From: Helicobacteraceae bacterium
GTDB lineage: Bacteria > Campylobacterota > Campylobacteria > Campylobacterales > Sulfurimonadaceae
DNA: 39,291 nt
Assembly: GCA_015484575.1 (NCBI GenBank)
Contig: WFND01000173.1
Coordinates: forward strand, 1 to 39,291
Direction: 5' to 3'
Of the stretch, positions 7,268 through 33,800 are shown piece by piece. The translations under genes were made by a program, and so were the position numbers. Position 1 is the stretch's first letter; each line of letters opens with the position of its first letter. The notes beneath the pieces are model-generated. The model had not been told where the DNA came from, made no database searches, and worked only from the letters and a program-made list of their open reading frames with translations.

Positions 7268-7268
7268 A

Positions 7269-8555
7269 ATGAGATTTTATAAAATAATTTTGCTTATGGC
7301 GGTAACGGTAAATCTGGCTTTTGCTTTAGATTTTACTCTTATAAAAAAAGAGAATAATGTTTCAGATCCCACACTTTTGGTTGTAGGCGGTATCCAAGGT
7401 GATGAGCCGGGTGGCTTTAACGCTTCAACTATTTTAGCAACACATTATACGATTACAAAAGGCAATGTGTGGGTAGTGCCAAATTTGAATTTTTACAGCA
7501 TAGTAAAGCGTTCTCGAGGTCCATATGGAGATATGAACCGTAAATTTGCTACTTTAAAAAAGAGTGATCCGGAGTATAAAATCGTGCAGAGAATAAAATC
7601 CATCATCACAGATAAGCAGGTGGATTTAGTTGTAAATATGCATGATGGGAGTGGTTTTTATCGTGAAAAATATATAGATAAACTACATAACCCTTATAAA
7701 TGGGGGCAGAGTTCTATAATAGATCAAGCGACTTTTGATTTTAACTCACCATATAAAGATCTGCTAAAAATATCTCAATATGTAGTAAAGCATGTAAATG
7801 AGCATCTGCTAGATAAAGAGCATCGCTATCATACGCATAATACCAAAACCAGAGAGGGTGATGTTGAGATGGCAAAATCATTAACATATTTTGCTATCAA
7901 TAACAAAAAACCAGCTTTTGGAAATGAAGCTACAAAAGAGTTTTCTACGCCTTATCGTGTCTATTATCATCTTCTTGCTTTAGAGGCATATATGAACTAT
8001 ATGGGTATAAAGTTTAGTAGAAATTTTGAGCTTACTCCAAAAGATATAGCCTCTGTTATAAATGAAGATTATGAGGTTACGCTATTTGAGAAAATAACCA
8101 TACCTACAAAAGGTATCAGAAGTAAACTTAGATATTTTCCTATTGATAAAGACAGAACCGTATATAGATCTAAAAATCCTCTTATCTGTGCAATAAAAGA
8201 GGGTAACTCTTATAAATTGCATTATGGAAATCACAGCATTACCTCTCTGTCGCCTCAATTTTTTCGATATGATGATTCTCTAAAAAAACTTGAACTATTA
8301 GTTGATGGAGAGGTGAAAGATGTCCCCACGGGAAGTACAATCTGCGTAGATAAATACTTTAAAGTACGCTCTAAAAAAGGCTTTAGAGTCAATATCATAG
8401 GTTACTCAAATTCCAAAAAAATTGAGACAGATGTGAAAATATATCATAACGATATACCAAAACGTTTCTCTATAGATAAAGATGGAAAAATATTTCGTAT
8501 AGAGGTGTATAGAGATAAAAAATTCAGCGGTATGTTTTTGGTTAAGTTTAGATAG
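7269..8555 (+). CDS. csd4: Csd4/Pgp1-type M14 peptidoglycan D,L-carboxypeptidase
   Basis: This 428-residue protein has a signal peptide (about residues 1-19) and an M14 carboxypeptidase domain. The zinc site reads Q43xxE46 within GIQGDEPGG, and H125 within NMHDG. Helicobacter pylori Csd4 uses Gln46, Glu49 and His128, so the spacing (3 and 79 residues) is identical and the unusual glutamine ligand is kept. The substrate-binding N90-R91 motif is also present. Csd4 (Pgp1 in Campylobacter) removes the terminal D-amino acid of tripeptides in periplasmic peptidoglycan and is needed for helical cell shape. The C-terminal 200 residues match the beta-rich accessory region expected for the family. It starts one base after the M15-like gene and abuts the next gene as TAG-ATG. 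Confidence 0.92.
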   Translation: MRFYKIILLMAVTVNLAFALDFTLIKKENNVSDPTLLVVGGIQGDEPGGFNASTILATHYTITKGNVWVVPNLNFYSIVKRSRGPYGDMNRKFATLKKSDPEYKIVQRIKSIITDKQVDLVVNMHDGSGFYREKYIDKLHNPYKWGQSSIIDQATFDFNSPYKDLLKISQYVVKHVNEHLLDKEHRYHTHNTKTREGDVEMAKSLTYFAINNKKPAFGNEATKEFSTPYRVYYHLLALEAYMNYMGIKFSRNFELTPKDIASVINEDYEVTLFEKITIPTKGIRSKLRYFPIDKDRTVYRSKNPLICAIKEGNSYKLHYGNHSITSLSPQFFRYDDSLKKLELLVDGEVKDVPTGSTICVDKYFKVRSKKGFRVNIIGYSNSKKIETDVKIYHNDIPKRFSIDKDGKIFRIEVYRDKKFSGMFLVKFR

Positions 8556-16111: not shown

Positions 16112-16131
16112 CCGATAGTTTAGCCTATCGG
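16112..16131. terminator. Shared hairpin between convergent genes (candidate terminator)
   Basis: CCGATAG and CTATCGG (7 bp) with a 6-base loop lie between the cytochrome stop and the convergent OmpA-like gene, overlapping the latter's stop codon. No T run follows on either strand, so it would be a weak or Rho-assisted terminator. Confidence 0.35.
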
Positions 16132-17834
16132 TTCATCTGTATCTTAAAATTGACTCTTCTTGAATTTTCTCTATCTTCATCTTTTTTCATAATTCGTTTA
16201 GCGTAGCTGTGTCCGTCACTGCTTAGTATCGTACTTAACCATTTTCTATACTGTTTTAATTGGTGGTCATTGTACATAAACTTTAAAACTTCAAAAGCAC
16301 GTTTTGAAGAGAGTTTCATATTTTTTAGATAGGAATTTTCAGCACTTAAACTGCCCCATTCGCTAGAGCTGTGTCCATTTACATGTAAGCTGTCTATCTT
16401 ATCTCTATATGGATAGAGGCAGGTGATAAGTTTTTTATTAAAGTGGTGTAAAAATGAGAACTGTTTTTGAGTCAAAAGATATTTTCCAGCTTTAAATCTC
16501 AGCTTCGTATCTGTAAGCTTGATTGTTAAATCTTCATCTATAGATATTTTTCCATCTCTTATCTCTTTGGCAAATGTTTTTAATAACTCATAATACAGTG
16601 AACCTTTTTCTGGGCTTATCTGTAGTGTTGAGCCGTCACGATGTAGCTTTATTACCCACATATCTGCTATCTCTGCACCTTTTTTGATGAGTTCTCCCGC
16701 TATTGCTATGTCTCCATTATGAAGCAGTGTTAGTGCATGAAATGTTGAACGTTCAAAGTTATCAAAAAAACGTTTCCATATAGGTTTGAGATGATTATCG
16801 AGTGTAATTGCCATAGCCTCTGTTTTCAATCTTGTATTACGGTGACCAACTCCTACTATAGCTCCATTTGAACGCTCTTTTATGTCGCTTAGGATATTTG
16901 TACCTTCTGTTGTTATATTGCACTCTTGGAGTATATTTTTTTGTAAATCAAATTTTATAAGTCTTGTCTGTTGAGCATGTTTTGAATCGTAGTAGCTGAT
17001 AGAAGTTAAAAAATTATTATCTCTAAGAGTGATGAGTCTATGGGCATTTAGTACGCCTTTTGATCTGTATCGGCGTAGCCATATCTTGTCTCCCTCTTCA
17101 CTAAGACGCATCAATGTTATATCTTGGGTAGAGCCTTGTGAAGTGTTTGCCAAGATAAGAAGAGTACCGTCAAAAGCTTCTGTTGCATCTATTGCTCTAT
17201 CGTCTGCTCTTGTACCGTACTTTTTACTCCAGATGATATTTCCCTCTTGATTAAAACGTGTCAAGTAGATGTCATTTAATCCTATACCTTGAGTGTATCT
17301 GTCATCTTTTCTGCTTCTTGAGGTCATAGATGAGCCGACAGCTAAAACACCACCGTCTCGAAGAGCTACAAGGCGATTCATTCTGTCGTAGTTTTTAGTT
17401 CCAAATTGTTTCTGAAATATTATCGAACCACCACTTGATAGCCTCAGTAAAAGTAACTTTCCATCTTGAGTATATCCACCGATAAAGTAGCCGTTGTCAC
17501 GACTTTTTATAACGCTTACGCCACGGTTAAATCTAGGAAGTTTATTTAAAAAATTGAAACTTATTTTGGCTTTTGAGTCAAGGCGTATTAGATGAAGTTG
17601 CTCTCCTTTGTTGGAGCTTATAGAGTCTAAATAGTCAAATGCAGATGTATAAGCGGTATTTGAGTCGGTATCTTGTCTGTAGTTTTGGGAGAATCCTACC
17701 GCACTGATTTGTCTGTCGTAATCTTGAGTTATATCAAATAAAACATCTTCAAACGGACCACTTATGATAGCAATATAGGGCTTTGCAAATAGATTTAGAG
17801 TAAAAATCAGTAGTAGAAAAATTGAGTGTTTCAT
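16125..17834 (-). CDS. Propeller-like outer-membrane protein with C-terminal OmpA domain
   Basis: The 569-residue protein has a signal peptide (about 1-17). Residues about 80-400 carry repeated units such as 'DGGVLAVGSS' and 'EGNIIWSKKYG', each with a polar turn and hydrophobic strands, typical of a beta-propeller. The last 120 residues resemble an OmpA C-terminal domain ('LHVNGHSSSEWGSLS', 'SSKRAFEVLKF', 'RENSRRVNFKI'), which binds peptidoglycan non-covalently. I infer an envelope protein tethered to the cell wall with a propeller facing the periplasm or outside. It lies 41 bases after the ankyrin gene; a TTACATGTAA copy sits in that gap and a second inside the OmpA domain. Confidence 0.78.
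   Translation of the reverse strand: MKHSIFLLLIFTLNLFAKPYIAIISGPFEDVLFDITQDYDRQISAVGFSQNYRQDTDSNTAYTSAFDYLDSISSNKGEQLHLIRLDSKAKISFNFLNKLPRFNRGVSVIKSRDNGYFIGGYTQDGKLLLLRLSSGGSIIFQKQFGTKNYDRMNRLVALRDGGVLAVGSSMTSRSRKDDRYTQGIGLNDIYLTRFNQEGNIIWSKKYGTRADDRAIDATEAFDGTLLILANTSQGSTQDITLMRLSEEGDKIWLRRYRSKGVLNAHRLITLRDNNFLTSISYYDSKHAQQTRLIKFDLQKNILQECNITTEGTNILSDIKERSNGAIVGVGHRNTRLKTEAMAITLDNHLKPIWKRFFDNFERSTFHALTLLHNGDIAIAGELIKKGAEIADMWVIKLHRDGSTLQISPEKGSLYYELLKTFAKEIRDGKISIDEDLTIKLTDTKLRFKAGKYLLTQKQFSFLHHFNKKLITCLYPYRDKIDSLHVNGHSSSEWGSLSAENSYLKNMKLSSKRAFEVLKFMYNDHQLKQYRKWLSTILSSDGHSYAKRIMKKDEDRENSRRVNFKIQMNR
16379..16388. repeat. TTACATGTAA palindrome, copy 8
   Basis: Exact copy inside the OmpA domain of the propeller-like gene, Leu-His-Val frame. 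Confidence 0.9.
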
Positions 17835-17875: not shown

Positions 17876-19267
17876 TTATTCCCTATTTTCTTCCTCTTTA
17901 GCTCCATAATTTAGAAGAAGTGTTATGATTTTCTCTCTTTTGTGCTGTTTGGCTATCTTTATTGCGTTAAGATTTTGTTGTGAGGATAGATTTACATCTG
18001 CCCCTCTGCTTAGCAGTAGTTTTGAAACTTTATAGTGGTTATAATAGACACTAAACATCAAAGCACTCCAGCCAAATTTATCAAGCAGGTTTATCTTTGC
18101 ATAGTTGTTTATCAAGATATTAACAGCTTCATAACGTCCGAGTGAAGAGGCTATCATCAAGGTGGTACGCCCGTTTGTATCAAGATAATTAATCTTGGCA
18201 CCTAGCTGAATCAGTAACTCTAGGTGCAGTTTTAAGATGTGTGTCTGCATTTTTGATATTGTCATATATAGTGGAGTCCAACGTAGAGCATTTACGGGGA
18301 TATTTACATGAGCACCTTTTATGAGCAACTCTGTCTCGATAACTCTAAAATCATCTGCCTTGTCAGGGTGTTTTATGATTGCGTTGTGTGTTAGAGTTAG
18401 TGGTGTGTGAAGATTGCATGCGGTATTAACATTGGCTCCATTATCCATAAGAAGCCTAGCTGTTTTTGCATTTGTATGATATAAGGCTATGCACAGAGGT
18501 GTCTGTAAGTTTGAATTTTTATGTTCTAATGTCGCTCCTCTTTTTATCAACACAGATACAAGCTCTGTAGCGTCTTTGAATTTTGCCGCTATACTTAAGG
18601 CTGTATCTGAGTTGTTCTGTGTAGAGTCTATATTGATTTTTTTATTTAGCAGATAGACAACCGTGTCTATATCTCTGCTATATACGGCTAAATGTAGTAG
18701 ATTATATCCATGTTGGGTTGAGTGAAAGAGCTTTTTATCTGCGTTACATGTAAGAGATAGTCTTATTATGTTCGCTTTTTTTGCACTAACATAACATGGC
18801 TCATCCGGTATCTGTGAAAGGTGTAGGCTCTTGATATAGTCTAAAACTTTATCATCGCTTATATTATCTGCATCCGGTATCTTTGCACCATAATTTATTA
18901 AGAGTGCAATCATCTCAAAGTATTGCAACTTAATACTTACATGTAATGCACTATCACCTTTGGATGTAGCTATATTTACATCTGCACCGTGATTTAATAG
19001 ATATAGAGTAATATCTGGTTTTTTATGAATTATAGAGTATATAAGTGGTGGAAGATAAGTAGCGGTATGAAAATCAATATCAAAACCATCTCTGATTAAA
19101 TTATCCAAACTTTCTATGTCGCTGTTTTGTATGGCTTCATAAAATGTTTTATGAAGTTGTTGTGTTATATCTGATTCATAGTGTGTGTGCATAGGTGTTT
19201 TCAGTATCATAGCACTCTGTAAACGTTGTAAAAATGGCATCTGTAATGATAGCTCATTTTCACTCAT
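17876..19267 (-). CDS. Ankyrin-repeat protein
   Basis: The 463-residue protein is built of roughly ten ankyrin repeats with recurring 'GADVN', 'TPL..A' and 'LL..GA' motifs from about residue 55 to the end. No signal peptide is visible, so it is probably cytoplasmic; the repeats imply protein-protein binding. No catalytic domain is present. It precedes the OmpA/propeller gene on the same strand and may be cotranscribed. Two TTACATGTAA copies lie inside (Leu-Thr-Cys and Leu-His-Val frames) only about 190 bases apart, the closest pair in the window. The 5' region faces the divergent ATP-grasp operon. Confidence 0.88.
   Translation of the reverse strand: MSENELSLQMPFLQRLQSAMILKTPMHTHYESDITQQLHKTFYEAIQNSDIESLDNLIRDGFDIDFHTATYLPPLIYSIIHKKPDITLYLLNHGADVNIATSKGDSALHVSIKLQYFEMIALLINYGAKIPDADNISDDKVLDYIKSLHLSQIPDEPCYVSAKKANIIRLSLTCNADKKLFHSTQHGYNLLHLAVYSRDIDTVVYLLNKKINIDSTQNNSDTALSIAAKFKDATELVSVLIKRGATLEHKNSNLQTPLCIALYHTNAKTARLLMDNGANVNTACNLHTPLTLTHNAIIKHPDKADDFRVIETELLIKGAHVNIPVNALRWTPLYMTISKMQTHILKLHLELLIQLGAKINYLDTNGRTTLMIASSLGRYEAVNILINNYAKINLLDKFGWSALMFSVYYNHYKVSKLLLSRGADVNLSSQQNLNAIKIAKQHKREKIITLLLNYGAKEEENRE
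18744..18753. repeat. TTACATGTAA palindrome, copy 10
   Basis: Exact copy inside the ankyrin gene, Leu-Thr-Cys frame. Confidence 0.9.
18937..18946. repeat. TTACATGTAA palindrome, copy 11
   Basis: Exact copy inside the ankyrin gene, Leu-His-Val frame, 193 bases from copy 10. Confidence 0.9.
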
Positions 19268-19332: not shown

Positions 19333-19359
19333 AAAGGTAATTTATATTGGAGGTGTCAA

Positions 19360-20724
19360 TTGTTAGAGAAGAAAACAGCTCTACATGAGAAGTTTTGGGA
19401 GATTTATTCAAAACAAGACAGACGTAAAATTGATGAATTTAAGACTTATATGGATAAATTTGCCGTCAATTTCAATCTATACAAAGATGGAAATTTTATT
19501 GAGCAGTCTCTGCCTTTTGATGTTATTCCTAGAATTATCTCTAAAAAAGAGTTTGCCAAGATAGACAGAGGACTTCAGCAGAGAGTTAAGGCTTTAAATC
19601 TCTTTTTAGAAGATTTATATACAGATGCTAAAATAGTAAAAGAGGGTGTTATTCCTGAAACTTTTGTAAAAGAGGCGGCTGGATATTTAAAAGAGTTCAG
19701 AGGTTTCTCTCCATCGCAAAAAATTAGAGCTCACATAAACGGTATAGATTTGGTAAAAGACTCAAAAGATGATGAGTGGGTTATCTTAGAAGATAATCTC
19801 CGTGTTCCTAGCGGGTCTAGTTATCCTCTGTCTATTCGTGATACATACAGAAAAATATACCCGGATTTTTTTGAAAATTTAAAGATAGAGCCTATAAAAG
19901 CGTATCCTAATTATATTGCTGAGTCTATGGATTATGTAAATACGGGCGGTATAAATGTCGTACTTACTCCGGGACGCTTTAACTCTGCGTATTATGAGCA
20001 TAGTTATTTAGCAGAAAAATCCGGTGCACAGCTTGTTCGTCCTCATGAGCTTACCGTAGTGGATAAAAAGGTATATTTTAAAAATTACAACGGTAAGCTA
20101 GTTAGAGTAGGTTCTATATACAGAAGAACTGATGATGAGTTTATCGATCCTAAATTTTTTAATCCAGACAGTCTTATAGGTGTGCCGGGTCTTGTTGAAT
20201 CTTATCTTAGCGGTAATGTCGCTTTGATGAATGCCATAGGTAATGGAGTGGCTGATGATAAAGGAATATACTACTTTGTTCCTAAGATGATTAAATACTA
20301 TCTATCAGAAGAGCCTATCTTAAAAAATGCACCGACATATCTTCCATATTTTAAAGAAGATATGGAGTATGTATTTAACAATATGGAAAAACTTGTTATA
20401 AAAGATGTTGCAGAAGCCGGTGGATATGGTGTCTTGTTCGGTCATGAGATGACTGCACTTCAGATAGAGGACTTAAAGACAATTGTCAAAGCAAATCCAA
20501 GACGCTTTATCGCTCAAGAGCTTATAGAGTTTTATGATGAAAAGTGTTATCTAAGTGGTGATTTACATAGTAGAAAAGCAGATTTTAGAGCTTATGTTGT
20601 TATGGCAGAAGATATTAAAGTATGGCAGTGCGGATTGACACGTTATGCACTTGAAGAGGGTAACTATTTGGTAAACTCTTCACAAGGTGGCGGTTTTAAA
20701 GATACTTGGGTGATGGAGTTATAA
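19360..20724 (+). CDS. Circularly permuted ATP-grasp protein (type 2, COG2308-like)
   Basis: I place the start at TTG 19360, not at the in-frame ATG 19234, because GGAGGT (19349-19354) is an ideal ribosome binding site five bases upstream and the upstream extension would overlap the divergent ankyrin gene. The 454-residue product is a circularly permuted ATP-grasp ligase. Motifs include 'LTPGRFNSAYYEHSYLA', a GGYG phosphate loop (354-357), 'FIAQEL' and a terminal GGGFKDTW (443-450). Such enzymes join a carboxylate and an amine using ATP; the product of this family is unknown. It is followed one base later by an alpha-E gene, its usual partner. Together they form the split copy of the pair that is fused at 24410-26899. 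Confidence 0.88.
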   Translation: MLEKKTALHEKFWEIYSKQDRRKIDEFKTYMDKFAVNFNLYKDGNFIEQSLPFDVIPRIISKKEFAKIDRGLQQRVKALNLFLEDLYTDAKIVKEGVIPETFVKEAAGYLKEFRGFSPSQKIRAHINGIDLVKDSKDDEWVILEDNLRVPSGSSYPLSIRDTYRKIYPDFFENLKIEPIKAYPNYIAESMDYVNTGGINVVLTPGRFNSAYYEHSYLAEKSGAQLVRPHELTVVDKKVYFKNYNGKLVRVGSIYRRTDDEFIDPKFFNPDSLIGVPGLVESYLSGNVALMNAIGNGVADDKGIYYFVPKMIKYYLSEEPILKNAPTYLPYFKEDMEYVFNNMEKLVIKDVAEAGGYGVLFGHEMTALQIEDLKTIVKANPRRFIAQELIEFYDEKCYLSGDLHSRKADFRAYVVMAEDIKVWQCGLTRYALEEGNYLVNSSQGGGFKDTWVMEL

Positions 20725-20725
20725 T

Positions 20726-21382
20726 ATGGAGCAGTTAGTAACAGCAAATGTGGCAACAAACCTTTACTGGTTAGGAAGATATTTAGAACGAACAGAGACA
20801 ACTCTGTATAAGATACTAAAAGCGTATGATAAGATTATTGATGTTGATAAAAATGCCGGTTTAGATATGTATAAAAAGCTTGATATTGAGTTGAAATATA
20901 CAGATGCAAAGGATTTTTTACATGTAGCTATTCTTGGAGAACATGAATCCAACATCTTAGATATTTTAACTAACGCCAGAGAGAGTGCCATTATCTCACG
21001 TCACGGTATAGATACAGAAGCTTTTGGAGAGATTATAGAGCTTCATGCACTTTTTAAATCGATAGCAGATATAGATATTGATTATAAGTTGATAGATAAA
21101 GCCCGTTCTTTAATTCGTGAAATATGGGGAACACTATCAGAACGTGAACACAAAAACAATTCTGACGCTTTTATAAGATTTGGTAAACTTGTTGAGAGAG
21201 CAGATTTTAGAATAAGATTTGGTAAAGATGAAGATGTTACTTTAAGTATTATTCAAGATATAGACACTATCATTGAAACTCTTAAAGATGAAGACAGCAC
21301 CGTACAAGCACAGACGCAAGAGAGCAACAGAGATCTTCTAGCCATAGTAAATGCTAAAATTCATCAGGTTATAGTAGAGTAG
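20726..21382 (+). CDS. Alpha-E domain protein (COG2307-like)
   Basis: The 218-residue all-helical protein carries the alpha-E signature near its N-terminus, 'ATNLYWLGRYLERTE', followed by amphipathic helices to the end. Alpha-E proteins almost always accompany circularly permuted ATP-grasp ligases and transglutaminase-like genes, and are thought to be a partner in the same reaction or complex; no activity is established. GGAG at 20714-20717 lies eight bases before the ATG, inside the preceding gene, so translation is coupled. The gene ends two bases before the convergent diguanylate-cyclase/phosphodiesterase stop. Confidence 0.88.
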   Translation: MEQLVTANVATNLYWLGRYLERTETTLYKILKAYDKIIDVDKNAGLDMYKKLDIELKYTDAKDFLHVAILGEHESNILDILTNARESAIISRHGIDTEAFGEIIELHALFKSIADIDIDYKLIDKARSLIREIWGTLSEREHKNNSDAFIRFGKLVERADFRIRFGKDEDVTLSIIQDIDTIIETLKDEDSTVQAQTQESNRDLLAIVNAKIHQVIVE

Positions 21383-21384
21383 TT

Positions 21385-23454
21385 TTAATCACTAGTGCGT
21401 AAAAACTTTTTTTCAAGTTCATCTGCTTCTACAGGTCTGCTGTAGAAGTATCCTTGTATATTGTGACATTGGTTATTTATGAGAAAATCTTTCTGCTCTT
21501 TAGTCTCCACGCCTTCTGCTATAATTTTCAAATTAAGTGCTTTGGCTAGTGCTATGACAGCTTTTACAATTCCTACATCTTCTTCATCTTTAGGTAAATC
21601 TTTTACAAATGTTTGATCAATTTTTAGTTTGTTAATCGGAAATTTTTTCAGATATGCCAAAGATGAGTATCCTGTTCCAAAATCATCAACAGCTAGTTCA
21701 ATGCCAATTTTACTAATCTCTTGAAGTATTTTGATGGCTTTTTGAGGATTTTTCATAATTTGACTCTCTGTAACCTCTAGTTCAAGCCACTCTGCTTTAG
21801 AGCCGGTGTCACTCATAATAGATTGAAATACTTCAATAAAGTCCTCTTTTTGAAGTTGTTTAACTGCAAGATTCATGGCTAAGATACCGGGTTTTAAACC
21901 AGCTCTGTACCACTGCCCAATCTGTTTCATAGCTGTTTTCATAACAAATCTATCAATCTCAACAATAAGTCCTGTTGATTCTGCTAGTGGGATAAATTTT
22001 GCAGGAGATATTATGCCCATCTTGGGATGTTTCCATCTAACTAATGCCTCCATTCCAACTATTTTATCTTCAACAGCATCCATTTGTGGCTGATAATAGA
22101 CTACAAACTCCTCTTTTTGCAAGGCTTCTCTTAAACTAGCCTCCATTAAAACTCTCTCAAATGCAAGTTCTGTCATAGACTCATTATAAAATTGATAGTT
22201 GTTTCTACCTTCATCTTTTGCTTTGTACATTGCAGAGTCTGCAAATTTTAAGAGATCTTTGGTTGTATCCCCATCATCTGGAAATACGCTTATACCTATA
22301 CTGCTAGATACATATAGTTTATGATTATCTATATCTATGCTTTGAGATAGAGTATTTAAGATATTGTCTGCAACTATAGAAATATCTTTAGTATCTGATA
22401 AATTTTCCAATATTACGGTAAACTCATCTCCTCCAAGTCTAGCAAGAGTATCCTCTTTTCTTATACTTTTATGAAGTCTTTTTGTGACTACTTGTAGTAT
22501 TTCATCACCTATATCGTGTCCAAGAGAGTCGTTTATCTCTTTAAAATGGTCAAGGTCTATAAAAAAAAGAGCAACTTTTGAGTCGGCTCTTTTTGCTTTT
22601 TTCATAGCTTGAGAAAGTCTGTCTGTAAATAGAATTCTGTTAGGAAGTCCTGTAAGTGCATCATGGTGTGCTTGATAGTTGTATCTCTCTTTCTCTTTTT
22701 GCAATCTGCGTTGCACCTCTTTTTGAGCTGTTACGTTTCTTATAAACTCCATTTTACTTACTGTTCCGTCAGAATTTTTTATTGATGTTGCGACAATTTC
22801 AAATGATTCACCGTTTGGTGTTGTGGGTTCATAAGTGACTTTTTGATTTTTATCTATAACTTCATGAAGTTTACAGTATGGACAGGGGTCACTAAGCCCT
22901 GCTACACCAGAGTAACATACTTTGCCGATTTGATTGCCAAACCAGCTAATCATAGTCTTGTTCATATATCTTGTATTATAGTTTTCATCAACAACAAACA
23001 GACCTATGCCGATTTTATCTATAGCTTCTAAATACTGTTTTGTGTTGTAATTTGTCTCTTCAAGCTCTTTTAAGAGTCTCTTCTCTCGTTCAAGTGCCTC
23101 TACTCTTTTGGTAATATCAACCATGCTCCATAGAATTTCATTCGTCTCTTGTATAGGGTCACCTGCTATATGCACCCAAAATAGTGAACCGTCACTATGT
23201 TTAAACTGATAATCTATACCTAGAGCTTCACCTTTTAATACAGCATTGAAGGCTAACTCAGCAAATCTTAAAAAGCTTTCATGATTTACATGAAATATCT
23301 CCGCATCTGTACCCAAGAGAGTCTCTCTATCGTATCCAAACATCTTACAAAGAGCATCATTTACAAATAGATTTTTTCTATTTTTATCAACTACCAAGAT
23401 ACCTATATGAGAGTTATTTTTAAGTTGGTGTATCCAGTGAGTTTCCATATTCAT
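21385..23454 (-). CDS. PAS-PAS-GGDEF-EAL cyclic-di-GMP enzyme
   Basis: The 689-residue protein has PAS domains at about 10-120 and 140-245, a GGDEF domain with intact GGDEF (341-345) and I-site RKED (332-335), and an EAL domain with EAL at 469-471 and DDFGTGYSS (590-598). Both the synthesis and breakdown sites for cyclic-di-GMP look intact, so it may be bifunctional, with product-inhibited synthesis. The second PAS contains C180 and a CPYC pair (191-194), a cluster that could bind metal or sense redox. No transmembrane segment is seen, so the sensor is cytoplasmic. It is the last gene of the minus-strand amidoligase operon, 20 bases after the transglutaminase gene, with AAGGAG upstream. Confidence 0.92.
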   Translation of the reverse strand: MNMETHWIHQLKNNSHIGILVVDKNRKNLFVNDALCKMFGYDRETLLGTDAEIFHVNHESFLRFAELAFNAVLKGEALGIDYQFKHSDGSLFWVHIAGDPIQETNEILWSMVDITKRVEALEREKRLLKELEETNYNTKQYLEAIDKIGIGLFVVDENYNTRYMNKTMISWFGNQIGKVCYSGVAGLSDPCPYCKLHEVIDKNQKVTYEPTTPNGESFEIVATSIKNSDGTVSKMEFIRNVTAQKEVQRRLQKEKERYNYQAHHDALTGLPNRILFTDRLSQAMKKAKRADSKVALFFIDLDHFKEINDSLGHDIGDEILQVVTKRLHKSIRKEDTLARLGGDEFTVILENLSDTKDISIVADNILNTLSQSIDIDNHKLYVSSSIGISVFPDDGDTTKDLLKFADSAMYKAKDEGRNNYQFYNESMTELAFERVLMEASLREALQKEEFVVYYQPQMDAVEDKIVGMEALVRWKHPKMGIISPAKFIPLAESTGLIVEIDRFVMKTAMKQIGQWYRAGLKPGILAMNLAVKQLQKEDFIEVFQSIMSDTGSKAEWLELEVTESQIMKNPQKAIKILQEISKIGIELAVDDFGTGYSSLAYLKKFPINKLKIDQTFVKDLPKDEEDVGIVKAVIALAKALNLKIIAEGVETKEQKDFLINNQCHNIQGYFYSRPVEADELEKKFLRTSD

Positions 23455-23474
23455 CTGATTTCTCCTTCTTTAAA

Positions 23475-24407
23475 TTATTGCTGCGTTTGACTCTGCATTT
23501 GGCTCTGCATACTCTGTATCTCTTCTCTTCGTACATCAACCATAACGCTAAGTTCACTGTTTCCACTACTCATAACAACCCCTTTTAACGGTGAAATATC
23601 ATGATAATCTCTACCTGAACCCAAAAGTATATGCTGTTCACGCGGGATAAGATTATTTGTAGGGTCAAATTCAACCCATCCCGCATTTGGTATATAGAGT
23701 GCAAACCAAGCGTGTGAGGCATCTACTCCAAAAAGTTTCTCTTCTCCTTCTCGAGGCAGAGTCTCTATATATCCACTCATATATTTTGCAGGTAAACCGA
23801 TAGTTCTAAGTGCAGATATGGCAAACTGTGCAAAATCTTGACAGACCCCTTTTTTTGCTTCAAATATATCTTCTACGGGAGTGGTTATATCGCTAAAACC
23901 AGATAGAAATTCAAAATCACTATATATGCGTTGCATAAACTCATAAGATGCTTCAAAAATATCTCTGTTTTTATGAAATGATTCAAGAGTATAATCGGCT
24001 ATTCTAGTAGAGCCTATCGGGATTAGCTCTGATTCAAAAAGAAACTGTTTTGCATGTAAATCACTCTGTTGAAATTTGCTTAAACGCTCTATCGCTTTTT
24101 TATAAGTTATTGAGTTTGATTTTATGTAGTGTATATGATTATCTATGAGTTGCGGAAAAATTTTTACTTTTGATTTTCCTATAACCTCTAATGATTGATG
24201 TGGTTCACGTATAAGCGTATGAGAGTTTAAATTTCCAAACATATCTGTAAATTCATGCGACTCATAAGGCTCAGGAGAGATTTTGATAGTGAAATCCAAT
24301 AGCTTCTGATATGCTGTATCTTTGGGTTTTAATCTTGCTATATTATGGCTGAAGGTAGCTAGACTTTGATAATTAAATTTGGTTTGATGATAGATATTAT
24401 AGGTCAT
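23475..24407 (-). CDS. Transglutaminase-like protein with N-terminal beta domain
   Basis: The 310-residue protein has a bacterial transglutaminase N-terminal domain (about 1-85) and a papain-like core with the Cys-His-Asp triad C189 (GVCQDF), H232 (SHAW) and D248 (FDPTN). Such proteins cut or form amide bonds. No signal peptide is present. It is separated from the fused ATP-grasp/alpha-E gene by two bases and is thus in the same operon. The C-terminus is glutamine/serine rich ('SMQSQMQSQTQQ'), probably flexible. Confidence 0.88.
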   Translation of the reverse strand: MTYNIYHQTKFNYQSLATFSHNIARLKPKDTAYQKLLDFTIKISPEPYESHEFTDMFGNLNSHTLIREPHQSLEVIGKSKVKIFPQLIDNHIHYIKSNSITYKKAIERLSKFQQSDLHAKQFLFESELIPIGSTRIADYTLESFHKNRDIFEASYEFMQRIYSDFEFLSGFSDITTPVEDIFEAKKGVCQDFAQFAISALRTIGLPAKYMSGYIETLPREGEEKLFGVDASHAWFALYIPNAGWVEFDPTNNLIPREQHILLGSGRDYHDISPLKGVVMSSGNSELSVMVDVRREEIQSMQSQMQSQTQQ

Positions 24408-24409
24408 GT

Positions 24410-26899
24410 TTACTCGTCATAATGTGAAAAATAGGTATTTGAAAATTCATTTGAACACTCTAAATACAACTCGGACAGAGATGTTAAAATCTCATCAAGA
24501 TTGCTGTATATTCCATCTTCATCTGATGTGAGAAGCAGATTTTCAATATTGGCTGTTTTTAGTAAAGTTTGAGCTTTTGATATTGGCTCTTCGTAAGTGG
24601 ATAGAGACTCTTTTGCTTTTGGCAGAGATTGAAACTCTTTTAAAAGCTCATCTGTTATATATGTTAATGATTTTGGAAATTGAGTATTTAAGATGAGAAA
24701 ATCTACCATATTTTCTAATGTTAAGGAGCTTTTATAGTGGGCTCTGTATGCGTTGAAGCTGCCTATAGAGTTTAACATGCCCTCTAAAACGTCATAACTC
24801 GTAGCTTTATCTAGTTTTAGACACAGCATTGATCTAGCTTTTGAGATAAGCAGTAGAGAGTTTTCAATCTTACAGCCTATCTCATAAAGGATAAGACCCT
24901 GCTCTTTAAAGATACTTTCACTAACAAGCTCTTTGTATGCTACAAGGTAGATTAAGAATTTATCTAGCTCTTTAGCTACTACTGTTGTAGGATCGTTTTG
25001 TCTGTTTATAAACTCATGCCACTCTTTTTGCATCTTCTCAAACAGTTTACTTGACTCAAATGTCAATAGATCTTTTAGATTTAGATTTGTATTTGAAAGC
25101 ATCGACATCGTAAATGAGAGTGAGCCTGAACGCATAGTCTCTTTTATGATAGATGTTATCTCTAACATAGGAAAAATTTCCAAACTCTCTCTGTTTTTAG
25201 TGTCTAAAAATCCGGGATAGCTCATAGTCATATGTGTTAAAGAGTTCTGTAAAATCTTCTGTGACTCTTTTGATGTTGCTACCTCATATCTATAATAATT
25301 GGTTATCTTTTTGATTACATGTAAGATTAATCTTGTTGTAGAGATACATCGTGCAAGGTATCTGCCAAGCCAGAATAGGTTTTCGGCTTTAGGTGTCGGT
25401 ATCTCATCTATTGAAGTCTCACTGTATGGGAGATAGTCAAAAAAGTTTATAGGAGATTTCTCATCTTCTCCCAAAATCCATAAATCTTTACTCGTACCGC
25501 CTTTACTTGAAGAGACCAAGAGGGTATCTTTTACATTTGATACTCTGACCAAGCCTCCATTCATAACCGAGTAAGAGTCATCTTTTTTAAGACAAAATGT
25601 TCTGATTACCGCATTTCTAGGCTCAATAGTGTTTTGAGTATAATAAGGAGCAGTAGAAAAATCAACATCTTCTTGTGCAACATATTGATTTGGGTATTTT
25701 AGCAGTAAAGTACGTAAATTTTCACGCTCATATAGAGACATTTTTTTACCAAAATAGACCTGTATATTTTCAGTTTTATCTATCTTTTTTACTATGAGAG
25801 TCTCTAAATTTTCAAGTACAAAATCCAACTCTTTTTTCTGTCCACACCACCAAGTAGCTATCTGTGGAAGGATTAGCTTCTCTTTTAAAAAATATTGTGA
25901 AACTTTTTCCATAAATGGATTTAGACCTGTATTTTCCAGTATGGCACTTCCTATGGGATTTATCATATTTAGGTTATTTTGCCTCATAGACTCAACCATA
26001 CCGGCAACTCCCAATCTGGAGTCGTTTTTAAGCTCTAAAGGGTCACAATATCTATCATCTACACGTCTTAAAAGGGTATTTATCTTTTTTAGACCGCTTA
26101 AACTTTTAAGCCATAATGAGCCGTTTTTACTAAGAAGGTCATCTCCTTGAACCATGTTTATACCAAGATAAGAGCTAAGATATGAGTGTTCAAAATATGT
26201 CTCATTATGAGGTCCGGGAGTTAAAAGTGCTGCTGTTGATATATCTGAATCTGTAAGCTCATTTAGTATCTGTTTAAAATCTTTAATAAACGCAGATAGT
26301 TTGTTTATAGCGATATTTGGATACAGCTCTTTAGATATAATATTCATAGTAAGTCTGTTTTCTATCGCATATCCAAGACCGGAGGGTGCTTGTGTCTTAT
26401 CGTTGATTACCCACATCTTTCCATCTGGACCTCTTGCGATGTCCGTTGCGTAAAAGTATAAATTGAAATTTTCTTTATCTCCAAAGTTAAAAACCTCACT
26501 AGAGAAACCTTTGTGAGAGTATATAACCTCTGCTGGTATGATATTGTCTTTTATTAGATTTCGATTTGAGTATAAATCTTTCAAGATGAGATTGAAAAGT
26601 TTTGCACGCTGTTTTAACCCCTTTTTTATCTCTATCCACTCATCTTGAGCAATAACAAAAGGAATAGGGTCAAGACTCCAAGAGCGGGTAGTCTCTCCAT
26701 CGACTCTGTCATATGTGTTGTATGTTACCCCGTTATCCTCAAAATGCCAATCTATCTCCTCTTGCTTTTTTTGAAGTGTCTTTAAAGTAGCACTTTCAAT
26801 ATCACTTAAAATATCTCTCCAGCACTCTCTGATATTGCCATTTTCATCAAAAACTTCATCAAAAGATGATTCGCAAGTGTAGTTATCGAAAATCTGCAT
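24410..26899 (-). CDS. Fused circularly permuted ATP-grasp / alpha-E protein
   Basis: The 829-residue protein combines a circularly permuted ATP-grasp domain (about 1-495, with 'LTPGPHNETYFEHSYL' and GGTSKDLW) and an alpha-E domain (about 505-820, with 'NLFWLGRYLARC'). It therefore equals a fusion of the two plus-strand genes at 19360-21382. Compared with the split copy the ATP-loop region reads 'IDKTENIQVYFG' in place of the glycine-rich GGYG, and the alpha-E signature has Ala where Glu is usual (LARC versus LERT). It could be a variant ligase or a non-catalytic partner. It starts directly at the stop of the upstream 1121-residue gene (TAG-ATG) and contains one TTACATGTAA copy in the alpha-E part. 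Confidence 0.88.
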   Translation of the reverse strand: MQIFDNYTCESSFDEVFDENGNIRECWRDILSDIESATLKTLQKKQEEIDWHFEDNGVTYNTYDRVDGETTRSWSLDPIPFVIAQDEWIEIKKGLKQRAKLFNLILKDLYSNRNLIKDNIIPAEVIYSHKGFSSEVFNFGDKENFNLYFYATDIARGPDGKMWVINDKTQAPSGLGYAIENRLTMNIISKELYPNIAINKLSAFIKDFKQILNELTDSDISTAALLTPGPHNETYFEHSYLSSYLGINMVQGDDLLSKNGSLWLKSLSGLKKINTLLRRVDDRYCDPLELKNDSRLGVAGMVESMRQNNLNMINPIGSAILENTGLNPFMEKVSQYFLKEKLILPQIATWWCGQKKELDFVLENLETLIVKKIDKTENIQVYFGKKMSLYERENLRTLLLKYPNQYVAQEDVDFSTAPYYTQNTIEPRNAVIRTFCLKKDDSYSVMNGGLVRVSNVKDTLLVSSSKGGTSKDLWILGEDEKSPINFFDYLPYSETSIDEIPTPKAENLFWLGRYLARCISTTRLILHVIKKITNYYRYEVATSKESQKILQNSLTHMTMSYPGFLDTKNRESLEIFPMLEITSIIKETMRSGSLSFTMSMLSNTNLNLKDLLTFESSKLFEKMQKEWHEFINRQNDPTTVVAKELDKFLIYLVAYKELVSESIFKEQGLILYEIGCKIENSLLLISKARSMLCLKLDKATSYDVLEGMLNSIGSFNAYRAHYKSSLTLENMVDFLILNTQFPKSLTYITDELLKEFQSLPKAKESLSTYEEPISKAQTLLKTANIENLLLTSDEDGIYSNLDEILTSLSELYLECSNEFSNTYFSHYDE
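25315..25324. repeat. TTACATGTAA palindrome, copy 12
   Basis: Exact copy inside the fused ATP-grasp/alpha-E gene, Leu-His-Val frame. Confidence 0.9.
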
Positions 26900-29800
26900 C
26901 TACTGCTTTGCCCACTTTCGACGCAGGTCAAGTGTATTTGGATACTCTAAGCTCTGTGCAACTTCTTGAAAATAGAAACGTTTTTTCTCTTTGCCCTTTG
27001 ATACAATAGCTCTTTTTGCACCATTTACATCATTCATGCTCTGCTGTATTGATGCCGCTGAAATATGTTCAACTTCTCCTTGGGTGTGATTAAAATCCCA
27101 AAATCTGCTGATACGTCGTGATTCTGCTTCATAAGAGTTTACGGGAAATGAGTCATAAGTACGTCCACCGGGATGTGAAACATAATAGGTCATACCCCCG
27201 ATAGAGTGCTGATTCCACCTATCTACAACATCAAAAACCAAAGGGGTATCAACACCTATAGTAGGGTGAAGTGCAGACCAAGGCTGCCAAGCTTTATATT
27301 TTACACCTGCTACAAACTCTCCTTCTACTCCTGTCGGGCTTAGAGGTATGGCTACAGAGTTACATGTAAGAGTATATCTCTCTGGTGTGAAGTTTGTCAC
27401 TTTTATCTGAACACGCTCTAGTGAAGAGTCAACATAACGTGCAGTTCCTTGCGAACCGCTCTCTTCCCCAAGTACATGCCAAGGTTCAATAGCTGCACGA
27501 AGCTCAAGGTGAAAATTCTCAACCGTTGCCATCCCGTAAAGAGGAAATCTAAACTCAAAAAACGGATCAAACCAGTCAAGTTCAAAAGGGTAGCCTTCAT
27601 TGTTTAAAAATTCAACAATATCTCGTATGTCCTCTTTTACATAATGTTCTAACAAGAACTTATCATGTAACTGTGTTCCCCATCGTACAAGTTTATGCTT
27701 GTAAGGTTTTCTCCAAAACAGTGAAGTCAGAGTTCTTACAAGTAACATCTGTAATAGTGCCATCTTGGAGTGTGGCGGCATATCAAAAGCACGAAGCTCT
27801 AAGATACCAAGTCTTCCAGAGCTAGAATCCGGAGAATACAGCTTATCTATACAAAATTCAGAGCGGTGAGTATTTCCGGTGATGTCTGTAAGCATATGGC
27901 GAAATAGTCTATCTGTAAGCCAGAAAGGAACTTCACCGTTTTCTGGTATCTGTGAAAAGGCTATCTCTAGTTCATAAAGATTTTCTAATCGTCCTTCATC
28001 TATACGAGGTGCCTGTGAAGTTGGACCTATAAAAGCACCTGAGAAGAGATATGATAGACCCGGATGATGCTGCCAAAACGTCAACAGACTTCTTAAAAGT
28101 TCCGGACGCCTAAGAAGTGGGCTGTCTTCTGGTTTTAAAGCACCTATTGTAACGTGATTTCCTCCACCTGTTCCCGTATGCTTTCCATCAAGCATGAATT
28201 TTTCAGTTCCAAGACGTGATTGTTTTGCATCTTCATAAAGTGTAAAGAGATTATCCGTCAGCTCTTGCCAAGAGGTTGCGGGTTGAATATTTACCTCTAT
28301 AACACCGGGGTCTGGAGTAACTTTTATAGTATCAAGACGCAAGTCGTGAGCCGGTTCATAACCTTCCAAGACCACTTTTATATCCAGTTTTTTAGCTACT
28401 GCTTCTATGGAAGCTATGAGGTCTAAAAAGGCATCTGTATGATTTAGAGGCGGTAAGAAGATATAGAGTTTTCCATCTCTAATTTCAATATTTAATGCAG
28501 TTCTGACAAAGATGGCATCTGGATCGTTTTTAATCTTCATCGTCTCCACTTTTTCACAGCGTTTTTTGGCTTTTTTGATAAACTTTTTAAGTTTTGGTGT
28601 CGGTTTAAACGGGTCAGGCTCATGATGAGGTGTATGCTCTTCTTCCGGGTTTTCTATCAAAGAGTCCATAGGAAGACGAAGACCTAGAGGAGAATTTCCG
28701 GGAATTAAAAATAGATTTCCACGTCTAAACTCCCAAGCAGAGCTTATCCATGAAGTTTCACCATAATTTAGAGGTAAAACATAGCCTACACTTTTGCTTA
28801 AGCCTTGGCTTAAAACTTTGGCAATGGTTCTGCGTTGTAAAGAGTCTTTTAAGTCACATTTAAGAGGATCAAAATCAATAGGAAGTTCAGCTTCTTTCAT
28901 AATATAATGAATAGGGTCTTCAAAAGCATCCATAATGTTTTGATCACTAACACCCAATGTTAAAGCTAAAGTTTTTATGAATTTTTTTGCATCTTTATTG
29001 GTGTAAGAGTAGCTTTTGTTCATATCTGCAAACAGAGAAGCATCTTTCCAGATGGCTTTTCCGTCTTTTCTCCAGATAATAGCTGTCTGCCATCTTGGTA
29101 TTGGCTCTCCCGGATACCATTTCCCTTGTGAGTAGTGAAGCATTCCGCCTTTAGTAAAGGATTTTAAAAGTCTTCTTGATAGTATATCTGCCAATTCACG
29201 CTTATGCTCCCCGTCAGCTTCCGTATTCCACTGAGCCGACTCCATATCATCTATAGATACAAAAGTGGGCTCTCCACCCATACTAAGACGAACATCATTC
29301 TCTTTTAGCTCTCTATCTACATCAAAACCTAGCTTATAGATAGCATCCCATTGCTCGTCTCTATATGGTTTGGTAACACGAGGAGATTCAAATATTCTAG
29401 TAACTGTATTTGAGTATTCAAATTCTGTTTCACACTTATCGCTCAATCCTTCAATAGCGTGTGCAGACTCAAAAGATGGAGTACATGCAAGGGGAATATG
29501 ACCTTCACCGGCAAAAAGACCGCTAGTTGCATCAAGTCCAACCCAACCTGCACCCGGTAGATAGACCTCTGTCCAAGCGTGTAAATCTGTAAAATCTTCT
29601 TCAGGACCACTAGGACCATCAAGTGATTTTTCATCAGCGGAGAGTTGAACTAGGTAGCCAGATACAAATCTTGCAGCAAATCCTAAGTGACGTAAAACCT
29701 GAACAAAAAGCCAAGCATAATCTCTACAGCTTCCAAGCTTGTTTCCCAAGGTTACTTCACACTTTTGTACACCTGCCTCAAGACGTATCGTGTAGTTTAG

Positions 29801-30265
29801 GTACTCATATATTTTTCTGTTAAGATAGACTATGAAGTCATTTATAGGCTGTTTTTTTAAATCGAGTGATTTTAAGAATTTTTTTAAATGTTTGCCTTTT
29901 TCTGTTATTTCCAGATATGGCGATAGCTCTTTTTTTAGATCATCTTTATACTCAAAAGGATAATTTTCTGCATACTCATCAACAAAAAAATCAAATGGAT
30001 TAATAGTGATTAAATCTGCAATGATTTCAACATCAATACCAAATTCTGTCACTTTTTCAGGAAAGACAATTCTAGCAAGATAGTTCCCAAAAGGGTCTTG
30101 TTGCCAGTTTATAAAGTGATTTTTTGGTGTTATTTTCATGGAGTAGGCTTCTATAGGAGTTCTACTGTGTGGAGCGGGGCGAAGTCTTATGATATGTGGA
30201 GATAGCGATATAGGTCGGTCATATTTATAGTGTGTTTTATGTGAAAGTACAACTTTAAGTGCCAT
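26900..30265 (-). CDS. Transglutaminase-DUF2126 (putative amidoligase) fusion
   Basis: The 1121-residue protein starts with a bacterial transglutaminase N-domain (about 1-90) and a transglutaminase core with C180 (GSCRDY), H229 (LHAW) and D245 (GLDATS). From about residue 325 ('NDVRLSMGGEPTF') to the end it is DUF2126, a family labelled putative amidoligase and related to glutamine-synthetase-like ligases. It thus joins an amide-cutting or transfer domain to a predicted amide-forming one. It is the first gene of the minus-strand operon and starts with AAAAGGA. A consensus TATAAT is at plus 30303-30308. No signal peptide is present, so the reaction is likely cytoplasmic. One TTACATGTAA copy is near the 3' end. 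Confidence 0.9.
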   Translation of the reverse strand: MALKVVLSHKTHYKYDRPISLSPHIIRLRPAPHSRTPIEAYSMKITPKNHFINWQQDPFGNYLARIVFPEKVTEFGIDVEIIADLITINPFDFFVDEYAENYPFEYKDDLKKELSPYLEITEKGKHLKKFLKSLDLKKQPINDFIVYLNRKIYEYLNYTIRLEAGVQKCEVTLGNKLGSCRDYAWLFVQVLRHLGFAARFVSGYLVQLSADEKSLDGPSGPEEDFTDLHAWTEVYLPGAGWVGLDATSGLFAGEGHIPLACTPSFESAHAIEGLSDKCETEFEYSNTVTRIFESPRVTKPYRDEQWDAIYKLGFDVDRELKENDVRLSMGGEPTFVSIDDMESAQWNTEADGEHKRELADILSRRLLKSFTKGGMLHYSQGKWYPGEPIPRWQTAIIWRKDGKAIWKDASLFADMNKSYSYTNKDAKKFIKTLALTLGVSDQNIMDAFEDPIHYIMKEAELPIDFDPLKCDLKDSLQRRTIAKVLSQGLSKSVGYVLPLNYGETSWISSAWEFRRGNLFLIPGNSPLGLRLPMDSLIENPEEEHTPHHEPDPFKPTPKLKKFIKKAKKRCEKVETMKIKNDPDAIFVRTALNIEIRDGKLYIFLPPLNHTDAFLDLIASIEAVAKKLDIKVVLEGYEPAHDLRLDTIKVTPDPGVIEVNIQPATSWQELTDNLFTLYEDAKQSRLGTEKFMLDGKHTGTGGGNHVTIGALKPEDSPLLRRPELLRSLLTFWQHHPGLSYLFSGAFIGPTSQAPRIDEGRLENLYELEIAFSQIPENGEVPFWLTDRLFRHMLTDITGNTHRSEFCIDKLYSPDSSSGRLGILELRAFDMPPHSKMALLQMLLVRTLTSLFWRKPYKHKLVRWGTQLHDKFLLEHYVKEDIRDIVEFLNNEGYPFELDWFDPFFEFRFPLYGMATVENFHLELRAAIEPWHVLGEESGSQGTARYVDSSLERVQIKVTNFTPERYTLTCNSVAIPLSPTGVEGEFVAGVKYKAWQPWSALHPTIGVDTPLVFDVVDRWNQHSIGGMTYYVSHPGGRTYDSFPVNSYEAESRRISRFWDFNHTQGEVEHISAASIQQSMNDVNGAKRAIVSKGKEKKRFYFQEVAQSLEYPNTLDLRRKWAKQ
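27360..27369. repeat. TTACATGTAA palindrome, copy 13
   Basis: Exact copy inside the transglutaminase-DUF2126 gene, Leu-Thr-Cys frame. Confidence 0.9.
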
Positions 30266-30351: not shown

Positions 30352-30998
30352 TTAAACGAGCAGTAATAGCCACTCTAAGATATTGATTACTTTAATAGTA
30401 TAACCATCAATAATCTCTTCTTGTGATGTATCCATACTCAATAAAAGAAGCTCTATCTGGTTTGAACGTTTCAATTCATCAGCAGCTTTTACTAAGGATC
30501 GTAGTTCTCTATTTTTCGTCTTTTTATCTGCAATGGTTTGATTCACTTGTATGAGATGTGTAACTTGTTCATACTCTTTGATTAAAAAATCAACCTCGTA
30601 TCCCTGTGCAGTTTTAAAATAATAAATCTCATCAAATCTCCGTTTAAGCTCAAGATAGACTATGTTTTCCAACATATCACCAATGCGTCTGCCCACATCA
30701 AAAGAGACTCTTTTAGAAAGTCCGGTGTCAATTTATTTTTTATCTTTGTAATAGAGATGGTATTTGAGATAAATAAGATGTTTTCTTTAGAAACACCACT
30801 TTTTATAAGACTCTGAATATGATTAAGCAAGATGGTCGATTTGCCACTGCGTCTTACACCTTTGAGAAAGATAATTTCATCTGTACTAGCTTTATGCAGC
30901 ACTTCAGATTCATAAGTTTTACGTAACAAACTCTCTGTAAAAAGTTTGGATTAGTAATTCCAATCTTCTAGTATTGCTAGTATCTCTTTTTTATCCAT
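30352..30998 (-). pseudogene. Decayed AAA_14/DUF4143 ATPase gene
   Basis: The ATG at 30996-30998 starts the family-typical 'MDKKEILAILEDWNY' but codon 16 is TAA. The frame then continues through Walker A GVRRSGKST to about 30780. There the sequence jumps, by a large internal deletion and frame change, to the C-terminal part. That part runs 'KYHLYYKDKK', a TAA stop (plus 30733-30735), 'IDTGLSKRVSF' and 'MLENIVYLELKRR', and ends at 30352. Intact members have about 380-400 residues; just over half remains. Two short open frames (30352-30696 and 30660-30929) are fragments of it, not genes. The family is a common, often decaying accessory ATPase of unclear function. Confidence 0.85.
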
Positions 30999-31079
30999 AA
31001 CTACTATTTTGTAATATTATATCGTAAAATTAACAGATATATTGGATGATTTATTAATTATTATAGCTATATCTAAGTC

Positions 31080-32580: not shown

Positions 32581-33174
32581 TTATCTCTCTTTTAGAAGCT
32601 GTAACATTGCACAGTTCATAGGGAGAGTTTTAGAGTATGAGCCTTCTATTAAACCTGTTTGCAGATTTACAAGTTTAATAAATACGATAACTTCTGAATC
32701 TGTAGCCGTGTATGTTCCTGCTATTGCATGTTTTACGTTTATATTATCTGTACGTATTTTTCTTATGTCACGAGATAAAATTTTTAATCCATTAGCGGAT
32801 AATTTAAAATATTTTGACACTTCAGCCTCTATAACTTTCATGTCAAGTTCATTTGTAAGAGAATTTTTTATACTGTTTGATAAAACATATCCCAGTTTCG
32901 TCTGATTTTCCAAAGACGTTAAATCAACAAACTCTGTCACAATTATATCTTTTGGAAGATCGTAAATATCATCAAATATCTCATCAACAGCTTCATCGGT
33001 TAAAGCCTGATAGTTAACACGACTGTCGGCTAAAGTGTAATTCTTCTCTTCTTGGGCAATGTAACATCTCTCTTGTTTGTGTGAATCATAGCTTACCACT
33101 TTCTGATAACAGCCACTTAGAGCAAATGTGCTAGAGAGTATAAGTGCTGATGAAATTAATGTTGAAATTTTCAT
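32581..33174 (-). CDS. FlgO-like lipoprotein (second copy)
   Basis: The 197-residue protein has a lipobox (LSGC at about residue 22). Residues about 75-190 resemble the FlgO domain: 'IIVTEFVDLTSL', 'KLGYVLSNSIKNSL', 'HAIAGTYTATDSEVIVFIKLV'. FlgO proteins are outer-membrane or periplasmic proteins first described with Vibrio flagella. The ATG overlaps the stop of the upstream FlgO-like gene by four bases (ATGA), so the two are coupled. It is more divergent than its neighbour. Confidence 0.72.
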   Translation of the reverse strand: MKISTLISSALILSSTFALSGCYQKVVSYDSHKQERCYIAQEEKNYTLADSRVNYQALTDEAVDEIFDDIYDLPKDIIVTEFVDLTSLENQTKLGYVLSNSIKNSLTNELDMKVIEAEVSKYFKLSANGLKILSRDIRKIRTDNINVKHAIAGTYTATDSEVIVFIKLVNLQTGLIEGSYSKTLPMNCAMLQLLKER

Positions 33175-33800
33175 TTTTTATCTCCACAGCGATGAGTCAC
33201 CTCGCAGTCATCCGATTTAATCATCATGTTAAATGCCTCTTCCTCTTTTTTCTTTGCTGAACAGCTTAAGTCTTTACAGTGATCACTAAGAGCTAACTTA
33301 ACCGTCTCCTCGTCATCTATAAGAACATTTGATGAAACAACCAAGCGGTTATCTTTTGGATCTAAGATACGAACGTTCACAAGAAGTTGCTCATCATATA
33401 TACCATATGTTCCAACCACAACAAGATAGTTATCACCAAAATCTTTTAATTTTGAGCGATCAAGGTAAAATTCACCATTTCTAACTTCTGTAAGTACCTG
33501 TACCCCGCGATAATCAATAACAGTCCAGCCAAAACGTTCAAGGTTTGTCATAAGTGAATCTGAATAGAGACGACCAAAATTTGATGTCTGGCTGAAATCA
33601 TTAACATCAACTATTGAAGTTAAGATGATTTTCTGTCCGTTGACCTCTTTTTTATCTGTTGCACGTACTGTTAGCTCTTCGGTAAGTGCAGTAACAGAAC
33701 TTGGTAAATCTGGAGCACGCATAATACGATTTCTGCTACAACCGCCAAAAATAGTTGCAACTACTAAGAGTAAAAGTGTAAATTTGATAATAGATTTCAT
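33171..33800 (-). CDS. FlgO-like lipoprotein (first copy)
   Basis: The 209-residue protein has a lipobox (FGGC at about 20) and a FlgO-type domain: 'IILTSIVDVNDFSQTSNFGRLYSDSL', shortened here to TSIVDVNDF and NFGRLYSDSL, then 'VIDYRG', 'NGEFYLDRSKL' and 'LVVVGTYGIYDEQLLVNVRI'. A cysteine-rich C-terminus (four Cys in the last 40 residues) is unusual. It lies between an outer-membrane barrel gene (23-base gap) and the second FlgO-like gene. A link to flagella or to another outer-membrane assembly is inference. Confidence 0.78.
   Translation of the reverse strand: MKSIIKFTLLLLVVATIFGGCSRNRIMRAPDLPSSVTALTEELTVRATDKKEVNGQKIILTSIVDVNDFSQTSNFGRLYSDSLMTNLERFGWTVIDYRGVQVLTEVRNGEFYLDRSKLKDFGDNYLVVVGTYGIYDEQLLVNVRILDPKDNRLVVSSNVLIDDEETVKLALSDHCKDLSCSAKKKEEEAFNMMIKSDDCEVTHRCGDKK

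Follow-up and report, generated by a model that had tools for sequence, protein, structure and literature searches.

The window analysed here, a stretch of 39,291 nucleotides, is contig C173 of a 2.07-Mb draft genome that is 92% complete. Judged by the genes discussed below, it is closest to metagenome genomes of Campylobacterota that bear the labels Sulfurimonas, Sulfurovum, and Helicobacteraceae. The locus consists of two arms that face each other. On the plus strand, a gene for a stand-alone circularly permuted (CP) ATP-grasp (19360–20724) is followed, after 1 bp, by a gene for a stand-alone alpha-E protein (20726–21382). On the minus strand, the gene for a transglutaminase-like (Tgase) domain fused to DUF2126 (26900–30265) directly abuts that for a fused ATP-grasp–alpha-E protein (24410–26899), and a free Tgase-like gene (23475–24407) lies 2 bp further on. 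Pfam profile matches bear out all of these assignments, which an earlier note on this DNA had proposed.

Between the arms lies the last gene of the minus-strand operon, encoding a PAS-PAS-GGDEF-EAL protein (21385–23454, minus strand, identified by Pfam), which the earlier note did not mention. We ruled it out as a component of the system because it is not found at that position in relatives. Indeed, DNA similarity with relatives is confined to the 19–21 kb and 23–30 kb bins, which leaves this gene and both flanks outside the conserved unit. The intergenic stretches examined hold no conserved small ORF that might encode a dedicated precursor peptide. In the flanks, an AAA-type ATPase remnant lies in fragments at 30352–31010 (minus strand), one of them with a Walker A-like GVRRSGKST, and a tandem pair of FlgO-family genes occupies 32581–33800. 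On the other side, an OmpA/MotB-like protein adjoins an ankyrin-repeat protein (16125–17834 and 17876–19267); the C-terminal part of the former gives a weak, below-cut-off match to ZorB2. Further out are a VanY-type D-Ala-D-Ala carboxypeptidase adjoining an M99 helical-shape carboxypeptidase (6500–8555) and an adhesin-like protein of 1916 aa with SdrD_B, DUF11, and DUF7507 domains (17–5767).

The stand-alone ATP-grasp, of 454 aa, matches PF14403 with E = 1.7e-132 and has the features of a working ligase of this family. Its TTG start at 19360 is plausible, as had been suggested before, since a Shine-Dalgarno-like GGAGGTG precedes it (19349–19355, plus strand) and the resulting length matches that of relatives. 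Compared with the crystal structure 3n6x, the solved structure that both ATP-grasps of the locus match and whose residue numbers (E161 to Q462) we use throughout, it keeps the Gly loop, the C-terminal NSSQGGG loop, and the E-x-N metal motif, with the Glu codon at 19789–19791 and the Asn codon at 19795–19797. E161, N163, K321, G374, G377, D428, N459, and Q462 are invariant across all 94 complete stand-alone copies, and the 32 stand-alone copies of an unbiased sample likewise keep every motif. Escherichia coli Gss and YgiC hold the same D...E-x-N pattern, which forms the metal site in glutathione-type ATP-grasps. A Yersinia homologue of this live-type ATP-grasp frees phosphate from ATP (PMC6376114). 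The neighbouring alpha-E protein (218 aa; PF04168, E = 3.8e-15) carries the ER motif as RYLER. Its profile match covers no more than positions 1–164 of the 294-position model, and stand-alone alpha-E proteins are short throughout the Campylobacterota loci, at 216–252 aa versus 313–332 aa elsewhere.

Both Tgase proteins of the opposite arm have complete Cys-His-Asp triads, as previously claimed. In the free protein (310 aa; PF08379, and PF01841 with E = 2.7e-17) the triad is C189-H232-D248, and in the DUF2126 fusion (1121 aa; PF01841, PF08379, and PF09899 at 1280.9 bits) it is C180-H229-D245; the corresponding columns are conserved in 74 and 97 sequences, respectively. Within the DUF2126 domain (26921–29440, minus strand), E332 of a GGEPT motif, N703-H704, and E823-x-R825 are conserved in at least 99% of 97 sequences; a role in catalysis is presumed for them from the family. 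When the DUF2126 model was compared with the PDB, the top 12 matches were all glutamine synthetases and Dop came 19th, with a best E of 1.6e-3 and low TM-scores. A sequence-profile search of DUF2126 against solved structures returned chance-level matches only, and a search of a viral fold library gave only weak amidoligase matches. From its predicted structure, and with weak statistics, DUF2126 looks glutamine-synthetase-like, which would make it a ligase fold distinct from ATP-grasp. A simple hydropathy scan of the locus proteins found no signal peptide, in agreement with the earlier note, and no long hydrophobic segment.

The fused protein, of 829 aa, is a different case. Its two domains match their profiles well (PF14403, E = 1.8e-129; PF04168, E = 1.1e-38, for the alpha-E domain at residues 505–824, positions 24428–25387), but compared with 3n6x its ATP-grasp has lost the E-x-N metal ligands, both the Gly loop and the NSSQGGG loop, and an ATP-site lysine. 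At the metal site, the fused protein has N-D-K (residues 166–168, positions 26396–26404) in place of the E-D-N of live copies; the Gly loop GGYG has become ENIQ (residues 377–380, 25760–25771), and the C-terminal loop reads SSSKGGT (residues 463–469, 25493–25513) instead of NSSQGGG. The loss is general. Neither E161 nor N163 is kept in any of 117 fused copies, N163 having been replaced by Arg in 100, Lys in 15, and Gln in 2, and K321, G374, G377, D428, N459, and Q462 are each kept in at most 5%. One apparent exception (locus L101) is a fused copy cut by a contig end. The same loss of E161 and N163 is seen in Actinomycetota, Acidobacteriota, Burkholderia cenocepacia, and an Enterobacter plasmid.

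Fused copies also have invariants of their own, among them the two tryptophans of a WWCGQ motif (117/117; in this protein residues 350–354, positions 25838–25852) that is conserved only in fused copies, E230 (115/117), and E319 (115/117). The scan for fused loci relied on short fused-protein patterns that included WWCGQKKE, so that a conservation bias is possible, and we dropped this motif as proof of conservation in the pattern-based set for being itself a search pattern. We therefore recounted on the 44 fused copies found only via DUF2126 or PF14403. There, E161 and N163 are lost in 44 of 44, W347-W348 are kept in all 44, and the Cys of WWCGQ is kept in 43. The fused alpha-E domain has changed as well: it reads RYLAR rather than RYLER, and the Glu is absent from most fused relatives and kept in some.

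Judged by these residues, the fused ATP-grasp is a PF14403 member by descent and is predicted to be no ligase. The earlier statement that each activity is present twice at the locus thus does not hold, given a fused ATP-grasp without catalytic residues and a fused alpha-E with RYLAR. Stand-alone and fused ATP-grasps form two clades with 100/100 support, so the degeneration is most simply explained by a single event. The structure has apparently outlasted the active site. An AlphaFold model of the fused protein (pLDDT 86.8) has 3n6x as its closest match and homoglutathione synthetase as its second, with YgiC/YjfC and trypanothione synthetase-amidase further down. In addition, at 30 positions the residue that never varies in the live type also stands in at least 95% of fused copies, which speaks for retention of the fold and of a partner or ligand surface. 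D148 is retained, and K368 usually so, and some residual nucleotide binding is therefore possible.

How closely do the two types travel together? A single search for the fused protein across 84,980 species genomes returned 79 loci, nearly all of the complete ones holding Tgase-DUF2126, the fused gene, and a Tgase. The facing alpha-E/ATP-grasp arm is present in most Campylobacterota loci with enough flank. Besides Campylobacterota, the gene set is found in Bacteroidota, Pseudomonadota, and Acidobacteriota, which agrees with the earlier view that these families travel together; in Acidobacteriota the fused gene occurs with Tgase-DUF2126 and Tgase, and in Actinomycetota with a Tgase. Synechococcus elongatus, used as a control, also gives matches to PF14403 and PF09899. 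Among 397 Campylobacterota genomes, DUF2126 scores above cut-off in 46. All 46 have a fused copy and 45 have a live one, the remaining genome (G284) being a draft of 240 contigs; a live copy alone is found in 6 of the 397. In a sample of 249 Pseudomonadota genomes, about half of which have an ATP-grasp, DUF2126 occurs in 71; counting from tables and judging copy type from score and open-frame length, we found a live-type ATP-grasp in 71 of 71 and two or more ATP-grasps in 67. Of 50 genomes outside Campylobacterota picked because they carry the fused gene, 48 also hold one live copy, in many cases on a different contig. In the draft genome G595, a fused copy stands alone, with no live one. Conversely, a plasmid locus of A. 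caldus (L197) and three genomes (G482, G495, and G510) combine DUF2126 and a live ATP-grasp with no fused copy, from which it follows that the twin is dispensable. By these counts, DUF2126 seems almost unable to do without a live ligase, whereas the dead twin, though commonly present, is not essential.

A similar pairing may be found within the live arm of some relatives. In eight Campylobacterota loci (L036, L037, L042, L046, L047, L049, L051, and L056) and four live-only Campylobacterota genomes examined (L189–L192), the stand-alone alpha-E/ATP-grasp operon contains two PF24827 (AstE/AspA-type) paralogues side by side. The H-E...H metal-ligand pattern is present in one, whereas the other has lost it in 12 cases out of 12, so that by their sequences these paralogues qualify as another live/dead pair. 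A search for an AstE/AspA partner elsewhere in the present genome, at 92% completeness, found none. We give even chances to the broader reading that the fused family is an ancient and widely kept non-catalytic partner of the live CP ATP-grasp, with the live/dead pairing recurring in the AstE/AspA-type pair of Campylobacterota.

The degeneration and the pairing are counted in sequences; what follows, on the order of reactions, the role of the partner, and the product, we infer. Our leading proposal, tentative and held at slightly under even confidence, is a cytoplasmic system for making and cutting amides that has two ligases and, for the first of them, a non-catalytic twin. To begin with, the stand-alone CP ATP-grasp and its alpha-E partner would activate a carboxylate with ATP and Mg2+ and couple it to an amine, in the manner of glutathione-type and peptide-polyamine synthetases. 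DUF2126, as a carboxylate-amine ligase, would then add another amide bond to the same compound or to a precursor. The Tgase-like Cys-His-Asp domains, both the DUF2126-fused and the free one, might cut or trim that amide, rather like glutathionylspermidine synthetase, whose amidase half cleaves the product of its synthetase half. The fused protein, which by its sequence degeneration should be incapable of normal ATP-grasp chemistry while keeping the fold and the shared invariant residues, would most likely serve the live ligase as a non-catalytic partner, be it an adaptor, a sensor of substrate or product, or a pseudo-symmetric subunit. The earlier suggestion of cytoplasmic amide making and cutting is fair in this light and in line with published proposals (PMC6376114, PMC5666114), but its duplicated set of activities falls away with the recognition that the second ATP-grasp is a degenerate paralogue.

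Three alternatives deserve weighing against this proposal. One could suppose that the fused ATP-grasp is still an enzyme, in which Arg or Lys replaces the metal and WWCGQ and Glu form a new site, giving the system three active ligase-type domains. Its strict invariants (WW, E230, and E319) do exceed what a decaying domain would need, and D148 and mostly K368 remain. However, E-x-N, K321, and the Gly and C-terminal loops have disappeared together, which removes the known means of holding Mg-ATP, and strict conservation would suit a binding partner too; we consider this idea very doubtful. A tagging role is easier to entertain, if still unlikely: the ligases would tag cell proteins with an amino acid or a small peptide, which the Tgase-like domains would then take off, as in PafA/Dop pupylation or RimK/RimB. 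Such a role has been proposed for the Anbu operon (PMC6376114), DUF2126 is structurally similar, weakly, to the glutamine synthetase/Dop superfamily, and the lack of a conserved precursor peptide in the intergenic stretches examined fits a protein target. On the other hand, the closest ATP-grasp folds make small molecules, and searches of this genome for Anbu or a 20S proteasome turned up HslV alone, next to HslU.

The last alternative, nitrogen salvage, overlaps our preferred explanation and differs from it mainly in purpose. Here, amide- or peptide-bound nitrogen would be rearranged or broken down: when nitrogen is limiting, the Tgase-like domains would work as deamidases or peptidases, while the ligases would assemble a compound for storage or shuttling. 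Published nitrogen-limitation data on related operons in other organisms do suggest, by analogy, a nitrogen link for the system. Expression of B. cenocepacia BCAM1233–1236 depends on NtrC and sigma54 (PMC5491218), Anbu is induced under nitrogen limitation in Pseudomonas putida (cited in PMC6376114 and PMC5666114), and in marine metagenomes these domains and those of urea metabolism vary together (PMC3597751). The gain of AstE/AspA-type deacylase homologues by the live ligase operon of relatives points the same way. However, two ATP-dependent ligases would be expensive for catabolism, the support comes from other organisms, and the AstE/AspA partner was not found in this 92%-complete genome. 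As a purpose in its own right, nitrogen salvage strikes us as quite improbable.

The degeneration of one of the two ATP-grasps makes it unsafe to annotate each CP ATP-grasp protein as a ligase; if the fused family is indeed an ancient non-catalytic partner, a large share of the proteins so annotated would lack ligase activity. The stand-alone ATP-grasp with its alpha-E protein, and DUF2126, are the proteins to assay as ligases, and the fused protein is a candidate binding partner. The association of these gene families is already established (PMC5666114 and PMC6376114, both citing Iyer et al. 2009); what this analysis adds is the dead twin and the pairing rule. In the open-licence literature searched, we found no report of a degenerate CP ATP-grasp copy, and no product is named for this widespread set of families.

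It is useful to contrast the locus with known systems. The Anbu operon, for example that of Yersinia bercovieri (PMC6376114, PMC5666114), shares the live-type ATP-grasp, alpha-E, and Tgase-like proteins, whereas this locus adds DUF2126 and the fused pseudo-ligase and has facing arms. A single published pull-down, on Anbu operon proteins, showed no complex among them (PMC6376114), which weighs against our proposal. The Anbu protease gene was not found in this genome (92% complete), where HslV, beside HslU, is the sole proteasome-family gene found, and we dismissed an Anbu link for this genome on that ground. In B. cenocepacia, NtrC/sigma54 control of BCAM1233–1236 (DUF404/407, DUF403, Tgase, and large Tgase), with changes of −6.0 to −9.4 fold, has been demonstrated (PMC5491218). 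A B. cenocepacia locus from the plasmid collection (L198) brings together an ATP-grasp, a Tgase, Tgase-DUF2126, the fused protein, and a Tgase; its fused copy also lacks E161 and N163, and its genes all lie on one strand, unlike the facing arms here. The same five gene types, in a single orientation and with a degenerate fused copy, occur on the Enterobacter roggenkampii plasmid p1_120063 (L199; NZ_CP116251.1, 6963–27377). That plasmid is IncFII-typed, with arsC upstream of the locus and an IS26-type transposase downstream. A split set and a fused set probably also coexist in the genome of Mycobacterium tuberculosis (Rv2409c–Rv2411c and Rv2566–Rv2569c).

Among ligases of known function, PafA/Dop of the pupylation pathway belong to the glutamine-synthetase-like fold group into which DUF2126 weakly falls; here, in contrast, DUF2126 is fused to a Tgase domain, in a genome in which no 20S proteasome was found. 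Gss, the E. coli peptide-spermidine ligases YgiC/YjfC, and homoglutathione synthetase share the CP ATP-grasp fold with the fused-protein model, and glutathionylspermidine synthetase/amidase likewise pairs a ligase with a Cys amidase. These are nonetheless different families, and when the ATP-grasp profiles were aligned to E. coli Gss and YgiC with hhalign, no match reached significance. Compared with them, the present locus brings together two predicted ligase folds, alpha-E, and a putative pseudo-ligase.
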